Assembly (NCBI GenBank): GCA_000720995.1
Contig: JOEL01000046.1
Span: 1 to 51,232 of the forward strand
Direction: 5' to 3'
DNA length: 51,232 nucleotides
Origin: Streptomyces celluloflavus
Lineage (GTDB): Bacteria; Actinomycetota; Actinomycetes; Streptomycetales; Streptomycetaceae
Below are positions 8,814 through 16,763 of the stretch, piece by piece. A program made the position numbers and the translations under genes. The number at the start of each line of letters is the position of its first letter. The stretch's first letter is position 1. The notes beneath the pieces were generated by a model. That model did not search any database. It was given only the letters and a program-made list of their open reading frames with translations, and was not told the DNA's origin.

Positions 8814-9194
8814 TCAGTCCCCGCCGTCGAGAAGCACATCGTCCCGCATCAGACCGCGGCCGAACTCGACCATCTTCCGGGCGTAGTCCTCCGTCCAGCC
8901 CGCGCGCTCCGCGAGCACCGGCATCGGCAGCCGGTCGAAGCGCTTGGGGTCGGCCAGCTGCGCGGCCGCCAGCGCCTGGAACTCCGTCGCGCGGTCGGCC
9001 GCCGCGCGGAAGGCGTTGGTCAGCTCGGTGGCCCGGCCGAGCAGCTCACGCGGGTCCTCGATCGACTCCAGGCCGAAGAAGTGCTCGGGGTCCGCCGTGT
9101 CCTCGGGCGGCTCGAAGAGCAGCGGCGCGGGCTTCCTGCGCCGGTGGTCGGGCGCCGTACCGCGGGGGTCGGGAGCCGGTCGCGGCTCGGACAT
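8814..9194 (-). CDS. conserved hypothetical protein, 126 aa
   Basis: Not recognised. A charged, Pro-rich N-terminus (about 25 residues) precedes a mostly helical region containing LFEPPEDTADPEHFFGLES and a C-terminal segment ERAGWTEDYARKMVEFGRG. No membrane segment or cysteines are seen. The start at 9194 is well supported by GGAGGT 7 nt upstream; an upstream in-frame ATG at 9332 has no such site. It has the same orientation as its neighbour at 7979 but 187 bp separate them. Confidence 0.65.
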   Translation of the reverse strand: MSEPRPAPDPRGTAPDHRRRKPAPLLFEPPEDTADPEHFFGLESIEDPRELLGRATELTNAFRAAADRATEFQALAAAQLADPKRFDRLPMPVLAERAGWTEDYARKMVEFGRGLMRDDVLLDGGD

Positions 9195-9710: not shown

Positions 9711-9956
9711 TCAGAAGCCGTGCCGCATACGGGCCTTGTCCCGGTCTCGCTGTTCCAGACCGGGGAACGAGCGTTCGTCGAGGGCTCGGGTGAGCTGTGC
9801 CTGGAGGACCGAGGCGTCATCGACGCTCAGGAACACCTCCTCTGTGGAGAGGTGCACCGGGCCACGGAAGACCATGGCCGAGACGGCGACACGGTCCCCG
9901 ACCAGACGTGCACCACCGGTGAGCCTCAGCCTGTGAGGGGCTTTGTCGTCCGTCAT
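9711..9956 (-). CDS. small protein following an XRE/DUF5753 regulator, 81 aa
   Basis: Unrecognised 81-aa protein with alternating hydrophobic strands (GDRVAVSAMVFRG, STEEVFLSVDD) and a basic C-terminus, GLEQRDRDKARMRHGF. It begins 62 nt after the stop of the XRE/DUF5753 regulator. That is where Streptomyces usually encodes a DUF397 partner, but this protein shows no DUF397 signature such as the WxKSSxS motif. It may be an alternative partner or a diverged one. Confidence 0.55.
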   Translation of the reverse strand: MTDDKAPHRLRLTGGARLVGDRVAVSAMVFRGPVHLSTEEVFLSVDDASVLQAQLTRALDERSFPGLEQRDRDKARMRHGF

Positions 9957-10018
9957 GCCGAGCACGCTACGGAGCGCGGAAGTGAGGGGCCATGTCGTTG
10001 CACGATCTTGCACGAGGA

Positions 10019-10867
10019 TTATCCGAGCGAGTTGATCGCCGCTGTGATGAGGGCACGGGCAGCCGAGCCGTAGACGGCCATCTCCGCCAGTTGGGAGAAC
10101 GCCTCGGCGTACACGGCGATCTCGCTGGGCGCCGACACGTTCACGGCGGCTGTGAGCAGTTCGACGCTCGTGCGGTGGTCGTCGAACAGATAGAACGCCT
10201 CCAGTGGCCACACGCGCCGCTCAGCCGTGAACGGGATGATGCCGAGGCTGACGTTCGGAAGGGCCATCACCGCCAGCAGGTAGCCGAGCTGGCCGGCCAT
10301 CGTGCCGGCGTCGCCGATGCGGTACCGGAGCACGGTCTCTTCCAGGAGCAGGGCGAACCGGTGGCCGCCTTCACGGACCACATGTGAACGCTCGACCCGT
10401 GAAGCCGCGGCCTCCGGCGAGTCGTCCGGGGTGCCTTGAAAAGCAGCGATAGTGGAGAGCAGAGCAGTCGCGTACGCCTCGGTCTGGAGTATGCCGGGCA
10501 CGACGTTCGAGCAGTACACGCGGAAGCGCCGGGTGCTCTCGTACAGGGGGACAACTTCCTCCTGTGCCCGGCGCATCCCGTGCCGGTGGAGCTTTTTCCA
10601 GTGCACATACATGTGGTCGGCACGGCGGTTCGCCGCTACCAGATCGGCGGCTTGGTCCTCTGCTCCGCACGCTGCGCACCATGCCCGGATGTCGCTGTCG
10701 GAGGCGGCTGTCCTGGCCCGCTCGATGCGTGACGACTTCGCCGGACTCCACCCACACCGAAGGGCCAGCTCCTGCCCGGTCAGCTCGGCGTCTCTGCGCA
10801 GCTCCCCGAGACGAGCGGCGAGGACTTCACGGGCGGCCTGAGCGCTGGACGAGGGGGAAGCGGACAT
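10019..10867 (-). CDS. XRE-family regulator with DUF5753 domain
   Basis: DNA-binding regulator of 282 aa. A helix-turn-helix of XRE type occupies about residues 14-70 (LGELRRDAELTGQELALRCG then SPAKSSRIERART). The DUF5753 domain fills the rest (YSNVVPGILQT-like segment written here as CSNVVPGILQTEAYA, and SLGIIPF). Members of this family, such as Scr1-type proteins, occur in dozens of copies in Streptomyces, usually paired with small proteins, and influence antibiotic production and development. Here it lies 27 nt after the DUF6879 gene, so the two are probably co-transcribed. Confidence 0.9.
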   Translation of the reverse strand: MSASPSSSAQAAREVLAARLGELRRDAELTGQELALRCGWSPAKSSRIERARTAASDSDIRAWCAACGAEDQAADLVAANRRADHMYVHWKKLHRHGMRRAQEEVVPLYESTRRFRVYCSNVVPGILQTEAYATALLSTIAAFQGTPDDSPEAAASRVERSHVVREGGHRFALLLEETVLRYRIGDAGTMAGQLGYLLAVMALPNVSLGIIPFTAERRVWPLEAFYLFDDHRTSVELLTAAVNVSAPSEIAVYAEAFSQLAEMAVYGSAARALITAAINSLG

Positions 10868-10894
10868 GAGTGGGCTCTTCGGCTCTCCGCTGGC

Positions 10895-11425
10895 TCAGAC
10901 CGTGTACGTCTCGTGCGGGATACCGCGCTCCCAGACGGCCTCGAACGCGGCCGACGCCAGCCGGACCACCGCCGGCTCGGAGCGAATCTCCCAGCCCGGT
11001 CGGGACCAGTCGCCGGCCCCGGAGAAGTGGTTGAACAGCACGGTCTCACCGTCGAACACCCAACAGTCGTTTCCGGGCAGGGCGATGTCCGACGCCTGGC
11101 GCCTGGGCAGCCAGCGGACTCGCTCCCCGGCACGCACGTTGACCACCGTGCCGGCGTGCTCGTACCGGATGTAATCGGTGACCGGTTCGGAGACGACGCG
11201 GGCGCGACGGACCACCACGCCCCGGGCTACCGTGCCCCGAATCACCTCAACCCAAGGCGCCCAGTACTCGGAAGCGGGGTCCACGTCCCGTTGCCCCGTG
11301 CGCTGCCAGGTCTCGAAATCCTCGGCCTCATCGCCGACCCCGTACGCGTCGCGCATCTCCAAGTGCACGGCCGAGTGCTTGGCCGCTGCCAGCAGCTCGT
11401 CAAATCCCGGCTCGTTCTGCGACAT
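10895..11425 (-). CDS. DUF6879 family protein
   Basis: A 176-aa protein with the family pattern: AVHLEMRDAYG near the start, GVVVRRARVVSEP, YIRYEHAGT, the RWLPRRQASDIALPGND segment, and WVFDGETVLFNHFSG. The role of the family is not known. It is repeatedly found beside XRE/DUF5753 regulators in Streptomyces, as here. Its start lies 26 nt inside the 3' end of the upstream 85-aa gene, which implies translational coupling. Confidence 0.85.
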   Translation of the reverse strand: MSQNEPGFDELLAAAKHSAVHLEMRDAYGVGDEAEDFETWQRTGQRDVDPASEYWAPWVEVIRGTVARGVVVRRARVVSEPVTDYIRYEHAGTVVNVRAGERVRWLPRRQASDIALPGNDCWVFDGETVLFNHFSGAGDWSRPGWEIRSEPAVVRLASAAFEAVWERGIPHETYTV

Positions 11426-11793: not shown

Positions 11794-13128
11794 TCAAGGC
11801 CGCCACCGCACCCGGTGCTCCGAGAGGTGTGCCAGGACGGCGTGATGGGCCTCCCAGCCGTCCGGGAACTTCACCGCCACGCCGAGCTGTACCGGCTCCG
11901 TCGAGGGGTGTTCGTCCAGCAGCTCCGCGACGCCGGCCCGGCACACCACGATGCAGGCATGGCGGTGGCGCGAGGCGAGTACGCACAGCCGGCCGGTCTC
12001 CAGGTGGAAGGCGGTGGCGTCCGGCCGGCCGGAGAGCGGGTGCAGGACGACCGTGACATCGAACTCGCGTCCCTGGAGGCGGTTGGCGGTGTCCACCGCG
12101 ACGCCGCTCACCCCCAGATCGGTGAGCGCCGCGCGGACGGCCGCCGCCTGGTCGCGGTGGGCCGTGCCGACCGCGATCCGGGCGGCCGTCAGCGGCGCCG
12201 GATCCGCCGACCGCTCGCTGGTCGCCGCGCCGCCGCGGTCCAGCAGCCGGCGCACCACCAGGGCCACCGCGCGCACCGCCTCCGGATCCGTCCGCGGCGT
12301 ATGGCGGGCGGGGAGTTCGAGCAGGCCCCAGCCGGACTCGGCGGCCTCGTCCAGGACGCGGTCCACGCCCGAGCCGTCCCCGGCCACGGCGAACGCCAGC
12401 CGCCGGTCGCCGTGGCCGGTGCCGCTGCGGAACGGCGTGTACGGATAGAACGCGGCGGAGACCAGCGGCGCGGCGGAGGCCGGCAGCCGCCACGAGACCG
12501 GCAGCCGGTGCTGCGGCAGACCGGGGTTGTGGGCCAGCAGCGTGGCGACCGCGCTCGACGACGGGTCGTAGGCCAGCCCGGCCCACTGGTCGGCGCCGAC
12601 CACGCTGAACGGGTCCAGCTGCCCCGGATCGCCGACGAACAGCGCCCGTTCGAAGAGCCCGGCGACGGACAGCAGCGCGTCCGACCGCATCTGGTACGCC
12701 TCGTCCACGATGGCGTGCCGCCACGGCTCGGCCACCTTGATGAAGGCCCATTTCGCGGCCGTCGAGACGACGACGTCCAGCTCGGCCAGGTCCGCGATCT
12801 TCGCGGACGTACGGACCGCGGGCAGCCCGGTCAGCGCCGGATCGTACGCGCCGGGCTCGCTGCTGTGCAGCCGGCCGACCGGCAGCTGCGGATCCTGTTC
12901 GGCGAGCCGCAGCACCAGGTCGTCCACCTGGGCGTTGGTCTGCGCGACCACCATCAACGGGCGCCCCGCGGCGGCCAGTTCGCGGGCCGCCCGGACCACC
13001 AGGGTGGACTTGCCGGCGCCGGGCGGGGAGTCGACCACCACTCCGCGGTGGTCGCCGTGCAGCGTGTCGTGCAGGATCGCGTCGGTCGCGGCGGCGGCCG
13101 CCGCGGCGGGGGTGCGGGTGCCGGTCAC
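11794..13128 (-). CDS. SF1 (Upf1/Dna2-like) helicase / AAA ATPase
   Basis: A 444-aa superfamily-1 helicase-type ATPase. Motifs in order: Walker A SPPGAGKST (about 34-42), Walker B IVDEAYQM (about 139-146), motif III FVGDPGQLDPF, motif IV-like SWRLP, motif V DTANRLQGREFDV and motif VI ASRHRHA near the C-terminus. The set is complete, so ATPase activity is likely. The length is short for a free-standing helicase, with little room for accessory domains. The GTG start overlaps the TGA of the upstream gene by 4 bp (GTGA), so it is the third gene of a tight operon with a nuclease and an unknown protein. Confidence 0.85.
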   Translation of the reverse strand: MTGTRTPAAAAAAATDAILHDTLHGDHRGVVVDSPPGAGKSTLVVRAARELAAAGRPLMVVAQTNAQVDDLVLRLAEQDPQLPVGRLHSSEPGAYDPALTGLPAVRTSAKIADLAELDVVVSTAAKWAFIKVAEPWRHAIVDEAYQMRSDALLSVAGLFERALFVGDPGQLDPFSVVGADQWAGLAYDPSSSAVATLLAHNPGLPQHRLPVSWRLPASAAPLVSAAFYPYTPFRSGTGHGDRRLAFAVAGDGSGVDRVLDEAAESGWGLLELPARHTPRTDPEAVRAVALVVRRLLDRGGAATSERSADPAPLTAARIAVGTAHRDQAAAVRAALTDLGVSGVAVDTANRLQGREFDVTVVLHPLSGRPDATAFHLETGRLCVLASRHRHACIVVCRAGVAELLDEHPSTEPVQLGVAVKFPDGWEAHHAVLAHLSEHRVRWRP

Positions 13129-14666
13129 AGCAGATCCTCCGCGGTCACGGGGTCGGGGCTCTCCGCGGCCGGGTCCGGCGGCGGGCCGCCGTGCGTCCAG
13201 GGAGTGTCCTGCGGGTCGGGCAGCGCGGGGCCGCCGCGCGGGGCGTGCTCGAAGAGGGTCCAGCACACCGTGTCGTCCGGCTCCGGCACCGAACCGGGCG
13301 CCGGCTCCCGGCCGCGCCCCATGCCGCCGGTCAGCCGCACCACCGGCGCATCCGGCTCGTCCGGCGCGAACCCGGCGAACTCGGCGGTCTGGGTCTTCCC
13401 GTCGGCCAGTGAGCGGTAGAGCTTGCCGCCCTCGGACAGCTGCGGCCGGTCGGCGGTGCGCAGCGTGACGAGCGGGCGCGGCATCGGCCGCCGGCCCTCG
13501 GAGAACGCCGGCTCGACCGCGGTGACGGTGCCCTGGAACGCCGCACCGGCCAGCCGCCGACCCGCCATCACCAGCGGGTCGTCCAGGGCCTCCTGCGCGT
13601 CCAGCTGCGCCTGCGCGCTCTCCCGGGCGGAGAGTTTCCGCGCGGCGGTGACGGCGTCGTCCCGGCGGGGCTGCGGTGGCTCCCCGGCGCGTACCCGGTC
13701 GCGGTGCGCGGTGTACGACCAGCGGTCGCGTTTCCAGCGGTCGGCGACGTGGGCGCCCGCCGGGAGGGCGCGCAGCAGGTCGATGCCGTGCCACACGGCG
13801 TCCCAGGTCGGCCGCAGCAGGCTCTCGACGAGGTCGCGGACGCCGTCCTCGGCGCCCGGCAGTCCGGCGTCGTAGCGGGCCATCGCGGGGGCGAGCAGCC
13901 GGTTGTCGAACGCCGGGTCGGTGGCGGGCCCGGCCGGCGGGCAGCGCAGCTGGCCGTCCGCGTCCCGCGCCGACTCCGCGTACTCGGCCGCGGCCCGCCC
14001 CGAGGTCCCCGGCGGCGGGTCGATCCAGACGAGCAGCGCGCCCAGATGCTGGTCCTCCAGCATGCTCTGGCCGGTCGCCCAGTGGCGGGTCAGCAGCCCC
14101 GTCATGGGCAGCAGCAGACTCGCGCCGGGCACCCGGGCCCGCTCGCCGACATGCGTGAACCAGCGGCCCAGGAGCGGGACCTGCGGCGGCGCGGGATACG
14201 GCGCCTGCGGATCCTGCTCGGCCGTCCGGCGGAACCGCATCGAGCGGCCCAGCAGCCGTACGTACCCGACACCGGGCGTGCTCGGCACGATCAACTGCGG
14301 TGCGTCCGCGCAGAGTTCGACCTGGACCGGGACTTTCTTGCCGGTCTCCGGGTCGGTCTCCTGGCGTTCCTCCCACTCGATGCCGTCCGCGAAGCCGTCC
14401 AGGTACGGCAGCACCGCCTCGGCCAGCTCGGCGAGGAAGGCGAACCGCAGATCGCGGTCGCGCGGCTGCGGTACGGCCAGCAGCAGCGGCTTCTCGCGGT
14501 CCGTGCCGACCAGCGCGCCGAGCGGGGCGCCGGCCTCGCCGGAGGTCGTCAACGGCACCAGGACCAGGGGGCGTTCGGAGAGGTGGCGGTGGCGGACCGT
14601 GGTCAGCGGCCGGGCGCGGCCGGCCGCCACCGCCTCCATCCGGGCCAGCGTCTCGATCAGTGACAT
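13125..14666 (-). CDS. conserved hypothetical protein between nuclease and helicase, 513 aa
   Basis: No domain recognised. The protein is soluble, acidic and Pro-rich at its C-terminus (PRGGPALPDPQDTPW). Conserved-looking blocks include [17 protein letters not shown] at the N-terminus, LIVPSTPGVGYVRLLGRS, QVPLLGRWFTHVGERA, and a middle helical part ending RKLSARESAQAQLDAQEA. Residues about 380-450 (FQGTVTAVEP, RPLVTLRT, GKLYRS) look like small beta modules. It overlaps the nuclease gene by 10 bp and the helicase gene by 4 bp, so stoichiometric production of the three is likely. It could be the scaffold, loader or specificity subunit of a complex; that is inference. Confidence 0.75.
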   Translation of the reverse strand: MSLIETLARMEAVAAGRARPLTTVRHRHLSERPLVLVPLTTSGEAGAPLGALVGTDREKPLLLAVPQPRDRDLRFAFLAELAEAVLPYLDGFADGIEWEERQETDPETGKKVPVQVELCADAPQLIVPSTPGVGYVRLLGRSMRFRRTAEQDPQAPYPAPPQVPLLGRWFTHVGERARVPGASLLLPMTGLLTRHWATGQSMLEDQHLGALLVWIDPPPGTSGRAAAEYAESARDADGQLRCPPAGPATDPAFDNRLLAPAMARYDAGLPGAEDGVRDLVESLLRPTWDAVWHGIDLLRALPAGAHVADRWKRDRWSYTAHRDRVRAGEPPQPRRDDAVTAARKLSARESAQAQLDAQEALDDPLVMAGRRLAGAAFQGTVTAVEPAFSEGRRPMPRPLVTLRTADRPQLSEGGKLYRSLADGKTQTAEFAGFAPDEPDAPVVRLTGGMGRGREPAPGSVPEPDDTVCWTLFEHAPRGGPALPDPQDTPWTHGGPPPDPAAESPDPVTAEDLL

Positions 14667-15955
14667 CCCGGCTCCTCGGGTCGGCGGCCCGCCACCGGGG
14701 CGGCGCCGGCCAGCGCCTCGGCGCGCAGCGCGGCCGCCCGGCGCAGGGCGGTGACGGCGGGGTCATCAGGGCTGTCAGGGCTGTCCGGGTAGCCGCCGCA
14801 CGGGGCGGACCCTTGCGCCGGCGGTCCCGGTGGTCCGGCCGCCGCCGCGAGAACCTCCCCGATGGTGCGCAGACCGCCCAGCTCGCCGCGCAGGCCGCGG
14901 CCCAGTGCCGCCACCGCGCCGTCCTCGCGGGAGCGTCCGCGGCAGTGGAAGGCCAGCTCGCAGGCGGCCAGGCACTCGGGGGCGTAATCCGCGTCGACCG
15001 CCGCCACGGCCGTGGCCAGCTCCCCGGCCGGGCGGGTCGCCGTCGTGCCGTCGTCCGCGAGCCGCAGATCGAAGGTGGTGCCCGGCGGCAGTGCGGCGGC
15101 GATCTCCTCGACCCGGGTGAGCCGGGCCAACTGGCGCCGGGTCGCGGACAGTTGCCGGCGGATGTCGACGGCCGCGGCGGTGGGGAGGTTGGAGAAGTCC
15201 TTCGGGCAGACCAGCAGCACCCGGTCGCGGACGCGCACCTCGCGGCCGGTCCGCGCGGCCACCTGCCGGGCCACCCGCTCCAGGGCGAGGACGTAGACCG
15301 CCGCCTGCCGGGCCGCGGCGCCCACCTTGGCGGCGTCCGCCGCGCCGTCGATCATCGGGAAGGACTTGATCTCCACGACCGTCCAGCCGCCGTCCGGATG
15401 CACCACCACCGCGTCCGGCTCCACATAGGCGGGCGAACCGGCCACCTCGACGGCGAGCAGCGGATGGTCCAGCAGCGACCAGCCGCCCGCCTCGGTCGCC
15501 GCGCGCAGCGCCAGCGCCGTCCGCGCCGCACGGCCCTCGGGACCGGCGGCGGACAGATCGGGGACGGCGGTCTCCGCATCCCCGGCCGCCTCCTGCGGTC
15601 CCGCGGCGCCCGGCCGCAGCCGCTCGCGCAGCAGCCGCATCAGCTCCGCGCCGCCGTCGGCCTTGACCCGCGCCTCGAAGGCGTTGCCGCGGACGATCGC
15701 GAACTGGGACCGGCCGTACGCGGCGGGGGAGCCGAGCGCCTGCGCCAGCGCGGCCTTGTCGACGCCCGCGCCGTCCAGCAGCGCGCGGCGCCGGCAGCCG
15801 GGGTTGGCGGCCAGCGCGGCGAGCGCGCGGGCGTCGAGCGCACGCGGCCGGACACCGGGGCCGCGCAGCTCGGTGAGCCGCTGCCGCAGGCCCGGCGTCG
15901 GCTGCTCCGCCGGCGGTACGGCCGCCGCGGATCCACTCTCGCGGGAAACGTTCAC
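14657..15955 (-). CDS. RecB/Cas4-like PD-(D/E)XK nuclease with Fe-S cysteines
   Basis: From GTG 15955 the product is 432 aa. It shows a full PD-(D/E)XK set: E94 in RGNAFE, D181 in EPDAVV, E195 and K197 in VVEIKSF, and the RecB-type Q217..Y221 in [11 protein letters not shown] cysteine at 54 (NPGCRRR) and three at 328, 332 and 338 ([12 protein letters not shown]) match the 1+3 cysteine arrangement that holds a 4Fe-4S cluster in AddB, Cas4 and Dna2. An end-processing DNA nuclease is therefore likely. The start is uncertain; an in-frame ATG at 16051 would add 32 low-complexity residues. First gene of the nuclease/unknown/helicase operon. Confidence 0.8.
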
Positions 15956-16169: not shown

Positions 16170-16763
16170 ATGGCAGCGCGCATTCTCCTGGCCCGGCACG
16201 GGCAGACGGAGTGGTCCCTTTCCGGCAGGCACACCGGCCGTACGGACATCCCGCTGCTGGACGAGGGCCGGCGCGGCGCCAAGCTGCTGGGCGAGCGGCT
16301 GCACCGCACCCCCTGGAACGGCCTGCCGGGCGCCGAGATCCGCACCAGCCCCCTGGTACGCGCCAAGGAGACCTGCGAACTGGCCGGCTTCGGCGACCGG
16401 GCACAGGACTGGGACGCGCTGATGGAGTTCGACTACGGCGCCTACGAGGGCCTGACCCCCGCCGAGATCAAGGCCGGGCGGCCCGACTGGCTCATCTGGC
16501 GCGACGGGGTGCCGGACGGGGAGACGCTCGCCGAGGTCTCGGCGCGCGCGGACGAGGTCGTCGACCGGGTGCGCGCGGCCGACCACGACGTGCTGGTCTT
16601 CGCGCACGGCCACATCCTGCGCGCCCTGGGCGCCCGCTGGCTGGGCCTGGACATCTCCTTCGGCGCCCGCATCCGCCTGGAGCCGACCTCCTTGTCGGTG
16701 CTCGGCTGGGCCTACGGGGAGCCGGCGATCGAGCGCTGGAACGACACCGGTCACCTGGGCTGA
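16170..16763 (+). CDS. histidine phosphatase superfamily protein
   Basis: Cytoplasmic phosphatase or mutase of the phosphoglycerate-mutase-like family, 197 aa, a usual length. The phospho-acceptor is H10 in the LARHGQTEW motif; the second catalytic His is in [11 protein letters not shown]. The GDGDTxxG signs of true mutases are missing, so a phosphatase is more likely. ATG 16170 has GAGAGG 8 nt upstream. It is divergent from the nuclease operon and convergent with the TPR regulator. Confidence 0.85.

Follow-up and report, generated by a model that had tools for sequence, protein, structure and literature searches.

In AddAB, a UvrD-type helicase is fused to a nuclease. Dna2 is a single polypeptide with an iron-sulfur (Fe-S) nuclease of the RecB family and an Upf1-type helicase of superfamily 1B (SF1B); between the two it has a beta barrel carried by a stalk made of two long helices (passages of PMC4716839). 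The bacterial DNA2-like enzyme Bad also combines an Fe-S nuclease with an SF1B helicase (passages of PMC7430649). In the archaeal Mre11-Rad50-HerA-NurA system, Mre11-Rad50 is found with a helicase and a nuclease (abstracts of PMC5715905 and PMC8910471). The Wadjet system JetABCD cuts DNA that is circular but leaves linear DNA uncut, and complexes of Rad50 work at DNA ends; the passages on JetABCD in PMC10586767, from which both statements are taken, are silent on what removes the linear product. Here we describe a three-gene operon, hereafter the trio, in a 51,232-nucleotide stretch of Streptomyces celluloflavus DNA (assembly GCA_000720995.1, contig JOEL01000046.1, positions 1 to 51,232 of the forward strand; hereafter the window). 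We consider it probable that the trio encodes a three-subunit, ATP-driven, Dna2-like helicase-nuclease, the core Streptomyces copy of which would serve in end or flap processing and a mobile version of which would destroy foreign DNA.

Architecture of the Three-Gene Operon

All three genes are read from the reverse strand, in the order Fe-S PD-(D/E)XK nuclease (14657..15955, 432 amino acids (aa), GTG start), a middle protein of no known family (13125..14666, 513 aa) and a helicase of the SF1B Upf1/Dna2 type (11794..13128, 444 aa). The nuclease stop overlaps the middle start by 10 nucleotides (nt; 14657..14666, ATGTCACTGA), and the middle stop overlaps the helicase start by 4 nt (13125..13128, GTGA), the two lengths that an earlier note made from the sequence alone had given. 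The GTG start of the nuclease is backed by the homologous starts MNVSRES at L098 and MNVFRDS at L027 (loci are numbered L and genomes G). Conservation of the unit was followed in 80 helicase loci, the best 80 of at least 582 and all from Streptomyces (the core loci), of which 79 hold the middle gene and 76 the nuclease gene, with the misses at contig edges; the grouping is therefore not a matter of chance, and the three-gene unit of the earlier note stands. With gene starts picked by script, 63 of 76 core loci retain the 10-nt overlap and 50 of 76 the 4-nt one.

The nuclease carries the predicted catalytic residues E94 (15674..15676) and D181 ... E195-x-K197 (15365..15415) and, as candidate Fe-S ligands, C54 (15794..15796) and C328-x3-C332-x5-C338 (14942..14974), all on the reverse strand. 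These residues, together with Q217, stand at the positions that the earlier note gave for a nuclease set and a 1+3 cysteine pattern, and all nine are invariant in 14 aligned Streptomyces nucleases, the window's included. In a set of 60 nuclease rows, which includes two pairs of identical terminal-repeat copies (L130/L131 and L150/L151), the four cysteines are complete in 59, the remaining row having X at C54, and the E94/D181/E195/K197 set is intact in 54, the window among them. One Streptomyces clade (L133, L146, L147, L149, and L154) has its catalytic residues replaced (H94, L195, R197), and L165 has a different replacement (T94/A195); these altered nucleases keep all four cysteines. As read from the alignments, the Fe-S fold of the nuclease outlives its activity in such copies.

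An AlphaFold model of the nuclease (predicted local distance difference test, pLDDT, 77.6) found its best fold matches in RecE, MGME1, SSO0001 (which we take to be Cas4), ACE1 (a Cas4-family protein) and EXO5, in agreement with the nuclease fold and the retained cysteine cluster expected by the earlier note. Weaker matches were to Dna2, AdnAB, AddAB, and RecBCD entries, with AdnAB and AddAB at E 0.046 and 0.092 at best. Queried with the nuclease, a profile search against solved structures also returned a sortase and designed proteins, the latter at E 4e-11 and 2e-7 across 30 positions with no stretch passing alone; we judged all of these to be chance and rejected them as relatives. The motifs support a predicted RecB/Cas4/Dna2-type Fe-S nuclease.

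The helicase has motif I, PPGAGKS, at residues 35-41 (13006..13026) and motif II, D142-E143, at 12700..12705, both on the reverse strand, and the Walker A lysine and the DE box are present in 58 of 58 helicases. Matches to AAA_11 and AAA_12 above the Pfam cut-offs bear out the SF1 type named in the earlier note, and the helicase's matches among solved structures are DNA2 and SMUBP-2 only. Against five fused proteins of the TIGR03491 type, hhalign pairs it with their helicase half at a probability of 99.6. Because motif I begins at residue 35, there is no room for an N-terminal barrel domain. PADLOC gave generic helicase matches only.

The middle protein and the nuclease have no Pfam, NCBIfam or PADLOC family match at E up to 1, which upholds the description of the 513-aa protein as lacking a known domain. 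TOBE_2 (Pfam E 0.14, below cut-off) was rejected as a family for the middle protein. In its AlphaFold model (pLDDT 75.3), an alpha/beta part at the N terminus is followed by long helices (272-300, 308-326, and 338-360) and, toward the C terminus, by a beta barrel (376-470). The fold search ranked Upf1 24th (E 0.056) among generic barrels such as V/F-ATPase, ferredoxin reductase, and L35Ae, and no identity was assigned from it; viral structure models gave nothing at E <0.001, and the solved-structure profile search gave nothing. Candidate kinship of the middle protein with the helicase or the nuclease was also dropped, with no profile match to either. It is attractive to infer that the middle protein supplies the Dna2 barrel and stalk in trans, an idea without significant fold or profile support.

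Comparison With Known Helicase-Nucleases

With Dna2, the trio shares the pairing of a RecB-family Fe-S nuclease with an Upf1-type SF1B helicase, and its gene order (nuclease, middle, helicase) is the domain order of Dna2 (nuclease, barrel/stalk, helicase). The two differ in that the trio consists of three separate proteins (nuclease and helicase are separate genes in the window and in 46 loci measured) whereas Dna2 is one polypeptide, and in that the trio helicase has no barrel of its own and the middle protein matches no known fold or profile significantly. Bad and the TIGR03491-type (TM0106-type) proteins are likewise bacterial Fe-S nucleases with an SF1B helicase, and the helicase halves are homologous in the TIGR03491-type proteins, which were the ones compared; they are, however, single polypeptides with a central domain of their own, and the trio nuclease and middle protein have no significant profile match. 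TIGR03491 was absent from four of four Streptomyces in a 60-genome sample, and the idea that it and the trio are mutually exclusive was dropped, these genomes being too few.

AddAB, AdnAB, and RecBCD resemble the trio as multi-subunit, ATP-driven helicase-nucleases, through the AddB-like cysteine pattern and through the weak fold matches given above. The trio helicase, however, is of the Upf1 type (AAA_11/AAA_12) and a separate small protein, and not a UvrD-type (SF1A) helicase fused to a nuclease. For this reason we regard the trio as Dna2-like rather than AddAB-like: of the split Dna2- or AddAB-like machine proposed in the earlier note, the split is supported, and Dna2 is the closer of the two likenesses. 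The helicases of Mokosh, Gabija, and PLuB show generic SF1 similarity, partial and low-scoring, and those systems leave the nuclease and middle protein unmatched.

A Core Copy in Streptomyces

The nuclease was found in 142 of 150 Streptomyces genomes (140 of the 147 good ones), and most of 56 long Streptomyces loci share its flanking genes. Among these are an NsdA-family regulator, a GGDEF protein and, at 16170-16763 of the window, a divergent gene that is phosphoglycerate-mutase/acid-phosphatase-like. This conservation makes the window copy a syntenic operon of the core chromosome rather than a defense island. In the flanks covered at the 80 core loci (about 6-9 kb, shorter at contig ends, with at least 3 kb downstream in 72), we found no Jet gene, no SbcCD and no hyp281, the fourth gene of the sister group described below; here and elsewhere, Jet negatives draw on all query sets (types I, II in three versions, JetA3). 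The earlier note had proposed repair or defense and pointed to defense islands as a place to look. For the core copy, no defense neighbors were found in the flanks of relatives of the window locus, and the defense association belongs to the mobile sister group.

Elsewhere in the window's genome there is one SbcD, and hyp281 was not found at E 0.001. The same genome carries a type II Wadjet JetD on another contig (G000:C20:48228-49448) and two JetA3 matches (G000:C2:409717-411165 and G000:C7:9704-11167).

A Mobile Sister Group Adjoining SbcCD and Wadjet

A plasmid search revealed two Streptomyces plasmids in which the trio comes after a fourth gene, hyp281 (281 aa), and is directly followed by a Wadjet type I operon. 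In both, hyp281 is divergent from SbcD-SbcC, and the order in the sister group is SbcC, SbcD, fourth protein, nuclease, middle, helicase. hyp281 was found in 14 of the 150 Streptomyces genomes and in 33 of 46 trio loci; UVR, a candidate family for the fourth protein, fell below the Pfam cut-off (E 0.081) and was rejected. SbcD stands beside the trio at 16 distinct loci (hereafter SbcCD-linked), with SbcC not found in L139 and the SbcCD pair in pieces in L144.

At 11 of these 16 loci, JetA begins within about 2.5 kb of the cluster, on either flank. The adjoining Wadjet is of type I in L142, L143, L144, and L153, of type II in L139, L141, L162, L168, and L134, and of type III in L138 and L140, for which the verification by model covers JetA3 alone. 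With no gene in between, JetA follows the helicase at about 70-225 bp in L139, L141-L144, and L162 and follows SbcC at about 100-150 bp in L138, L140, and L168; in L153 (a helicase) and in L134, one or two genes separate it from the cluster. The full set of four Jet genes was recovered both for type I (by model in L143 and by tblastn at the other loci) and for type II (models complete in G095 and partial in L141/L214, L162/L221, and L168/L228; tblastn in L139/L211). The trios of L139 and L142 are nearly identical and adjoin different Wadjet types. No Jet gene was found in the flanks covered at 17 loci with hyp281 but without SbcCD, nor at 13 loci with neither.

The accessory SbcC proteins contain one CxxC each (10 of 10 examined), nine with the LSGGE signature, and the Mre11 motifs DWH, GNHD, and GH(I/L)H are present in 13 of 13 accessory SbcD proteins examined. 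In PADLOC, accessory SbcC gives matches of the structural maintenance of chromosomes (SMC) type (mad3 1.3e-23, LmuB 4.1e-17); PADLOC-DB v2 holds no match for the nuclease, middle protein, fourth protein or accessory SbcD. In a first tree, 15 SbcD-linked rows and L166, in which no SbcCD was found, form one clade (Shimodaira-Hasegawa-like approximate likelihood ratio test 99), with L168 outside it on a long branch. A second tree of 57 rows, which leaves out L168, L131, and L151, requires two changes for the SbcCD label; L143 and L144 are in neither tree.

The sister group resembles the archaeal Mre11-Rad50-HerA-NurA system in bringing Mre11-Rad50 together with a helicase and a nuclease, and differs in that its helicase and nuclease belong to other families and in that a fourth protein and, mostly, Wadjet are added. 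Wadjet itself adjoins the accessory clusters as separate genes: no trio protein matches the Jet models, and Jet genes neighbor the sister loci only.

Several further genes were seen near accessory trios. In L130, a type IV restriction-like helicase neighbors the trio. In one sub-clade, a ResIII helicase with helicase-associated (HA) repeats directly follows the trio helicase (L134:11910-14150, L152:5708-7981, and L153:5794-8043). A gene pair encoding 1341 and 391 aa (L150:6-5203, L151, and L222:8613-13729), which drew no match from Pfam or PADLOC at the thresholds applied, neighbors the accessory trio in one genome and, in a genome from another family, lies about 7 kb past it. The gene between SbcC and JetA2 in G095 (L230:15113-16588) has weak RmrA/capP-type matches.

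Distribution and Co-inheritance

The trio is not confined to Streptomyces: other actinobacterial families carry it, as do two genomes from other classes. Within the class, the middle profile matches 70 of 394 genomes, spanning 15 of 137 genera. Among 296 genomes of the phylum, it matches 11 and the nuclease profile 14, and in all 11 genomes with the middle gene the nuclease adjoins it; the recurrence of the three genes together, which the earlier note had named as a check, is borne out. Two genomes outside the window's class, G310 and G393, hold complete trios with diverged middle genes (L137 and L177); an extra nuclease match in G158 was rejected as a trio member, there being no trio around it (L178).

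Nuclease and middle are present in 46, and the helicase as well in 44, of 47 loci that were fetched for matching the nuclease, middle or fourth protein, so that those presences are partly by construction. In these distant lineages, again with gene starts picked by script, the nuclease-middle overlap is 4 nt in 36 of 46 loci and the middle-helicase overlap is 4, 10 or 11 nt in 30 of 44. The distance matrices of the three families correlate (r 0.93-0.94, a value reached by 0 of 500 permutations). Judged by these sequence comparisons, the three genes are inherited as one unit. The middle gene was not found in phage records, nor the middle and nuclease in viral contigs, in a pattern-based search that was not exhaustive and did not include the helicase.

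Neighbors of the trio of L137 (1353-11558) include a type III Mod methyltransferase, a phage-type integrase fragment and, as read from the sequence, a UvrD-RecB-like gene. In L177 (3062-4753), the helicase has next to it, in the same orientation, a protein of the RNase_H_2 family (PF13482). At L135, a GGDEF-EAL gene, read from the sequence, follows the nuclease-middle pair; a GGDEF protein is also found near the core Streptomyces trio.

Other Features of the Window

A small conserved gene on the reverse strand (8814..9194, 126 aa) has no NCBIfam or Pfam family, and its membership in the trio system is uncertain. Its homologue L023:9375-9833 was matched in 57 of 57 sequences (the 56 long loci and the window). 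In L023 and L035, the homologue lies directly downstream of the helicase; in the window, other genes intervene. These small genes (9711-11425, reverse strand) look inserted here, and presumably encode a Scr1/XRE-type regulator and DUF6879/DUF397-like partners.

A 16-base SOS pattern, allowing up to three mismatches, has no site within 300 bases upstream of the nuclease gene. Across the window it has 36 sites where 19 are expected, and 1 of 100 shuffles gave as many; the exact core GAACNNNNGTTC was looked for in trio loci only. With no SOS-type site just upstream of the trio, SOS-box control was dropped as a candidate.

Proposed Function and Alternative Explanations

SF1B helicases move 5' to 3' on single-stranded DNA. 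The trio motor would by family travel in this way, the Fe-S nuclease would cut the single strand along which it travels, and the middle protein would join the two, perhaps as the Dna2-type beta barrel and stalk that the trio helicase lacks. The core copy would take part in DNA end or flap processing in Streptomyces, probably with the housekeeping SbcCD. In the mobile version, Wadjet would linearize circular DNA, Mre11-Rad50 (SbcCD) would open the ends left by the Wadjet cut, and the trio would unwind and degrade the opened DNA; the carrier's linear replicon would be safe from Wadjet. We read the accessory cluster in this order, linearize, open, degrade, because JetABCD cleaves circular DNA and Rad50 acts on ends, and the accessory form probably destroys DNA cut by Wadjet.

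The alternative that survives best, and which we find rather unlikely, is that the trio serves genome maintenance alone (end resection, flaps or stalled forks) and that its Wadjet and SbcCD neighbors are hitchhikers in subtelomeric islands. The breadth of the nuclease in Streptomyces, the conserved neighborhood and the absence of SbcCD and Wadjet from the flanks covered at the 80 core loci would fit such a role, as would the enrichment of SMC-type systems, Wadjet and Lamassu, at Streptomyces chromosome ends in an Actinobacteria defense survey (passages of PMC10482375). Against it, the Wadjet beside the cluster is of three types, follows the helicase at some loci and SbcC at others, and turns up in different branches and families. 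By way of background, full-length type I JetC occurs in 5 of the 150 Streptomyces genomes. Type II JetD gives matches in 64 (fragments counted, E 1e-3) and JetA3, the Wadjet type III model, in 147, which makes a type III-like gene near-core across Streptomyces; the JetA3 genes beside the cluster in G086 and G138 are second copies. Ten of the 150 genomes carry an SbcCD-linked cluster, and in four of these a Wadjet of type I or II lies no more than about 20 kb away, for which a rough, arm-limited chance figure is 3e-5 under post hoc assumptions (both being assumed to lie in chromosome arms); two more have an extra JetA3. The counts in these ten genomes also speak against hitchhiking.

It seems unlikely that the trio, core copy included, is a self-contained defense system degrading incoming linear or damaged DNA. 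Its mobile relatives adjoin Wadjet, the type IV restriction-like helicase (L130) and the type III methyltransferase (L137), as such a system might; near-universality and synteny in Streptomyces are, however, unlike most defense systems, PADLOC sees a generic helicase only, and the phage and viral contig searches yielded none of the genes sought in them.

We give equally little credence to a mobile version that serves linear replicons themselves, whether in processing telomeres, in end-first conjugation or where linear plasmids and chromosomes compete. The SbcCD-linked cluster lies within about 25 kb of an end on four of five single-contig chromosomes, near both ends in two of them, and near the record end in two plasmids, one annotated as circular; on the fifth chromosome (G110) it is 524 kb from the end. 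The 25-kb cut-off was set after seeing the data, however, and terminal regions are rich in accessory genes. Further, the SbcCD-linked version is present in 10 of the 150 sampled Streptomyces (found via the fourth gene) and is therefore not needed for linearity.

Fe-S nucleases of the RecB/Cas4/EXO5 type act on DNA, and the SbcCD and Wadjet neighbors point to DNA ends. Both facts make it very improbable that the helicase acts, Upf1-like, on RNA or RNA-DNA hybrids and that the nuclease removes R-loops or primers instead of acting on breaks, for which the Upf1-type SF1B helicase and the ability of Dna2's DNA contacts to accommodate RNA (passages of PMC4716839) can be cited.

Several observations weigh against our preferred reading of a Dna2-like helicase-nuclease with a Wadjet-linked mobile form. 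At 5 of the 16 SbcCD-linked loci (L130, L132, L148, L150, and L152) there is no Wadjet in the flanks covered, the SbcC side of L132 being cut by the chromosome end, and the SbcCD-linked loci are partly close relatives. Part of the Wadjet adjacency may reflect a shared habitat, since Wadjet is enriched at chromosome ends. L135 and L159 have the nuclease-middle pair with no helicase in the flank covered, and nuclease activity is not always needed, given the catalytic replacements described above. The nuclease fold match is marginal (best E 9.9e-4, the sole one <0.001), the best fold match of the middle protein (E 0.017) is not significant, and neither the nuclease nor the middle profile significantly matches the TIGR03491-type proteins. 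Finally, the window copy has no SbcCD, fourth gene or Wadjet nearby, so that an accessory function for it is something we infer.

Implications

Helicase-nucleases as such are already known; the association with SbcCD and Wadjet is undescribed in the open-access literature searched. No description of the trio or of its link to SbcCD and Wadjet was found among the open-access matches listed, a coverage outside which most subscription-journal papers fall, and a term search of the main text of a subtelomere study (PMC8627663) found no helicase, nuclease, SbcC, SMC or defense.

More tentatively, and with some doubt, we propose an actinobacterial pathway for destroying foreign DNA, in which Wadjet of any of the three types linearizes circular DNA, a dedicated Mre11-Rad50 with a new partner processes the ends and a split Dna2 of three subunits completes the breakdown, the Streptomyces trio being a resident, possibly domesticated branch. 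If true, this would be a bacterial counterpart of the Mre11-Rad50 and Dna2 resection pair turned into immunity, and an immunity machine that often sits close to the termini of linear replicons, where its carrier is safe from Wadjet.

For Streptomyces, the trio would add a family of helicase-nuclease complexes present in most members of the genus, with a subunit of unfamiliar fold, and it offers a testable split model of Dna2. The terminal SMC-type systems of these bacteria (passages of PMC10482375) would gain a mechanistically suggestive member. The sister group suggests what may follow Wadjet's cut, and the trio and its mobile cousins together suggest a way of shredding foreign DNA that has not been described.

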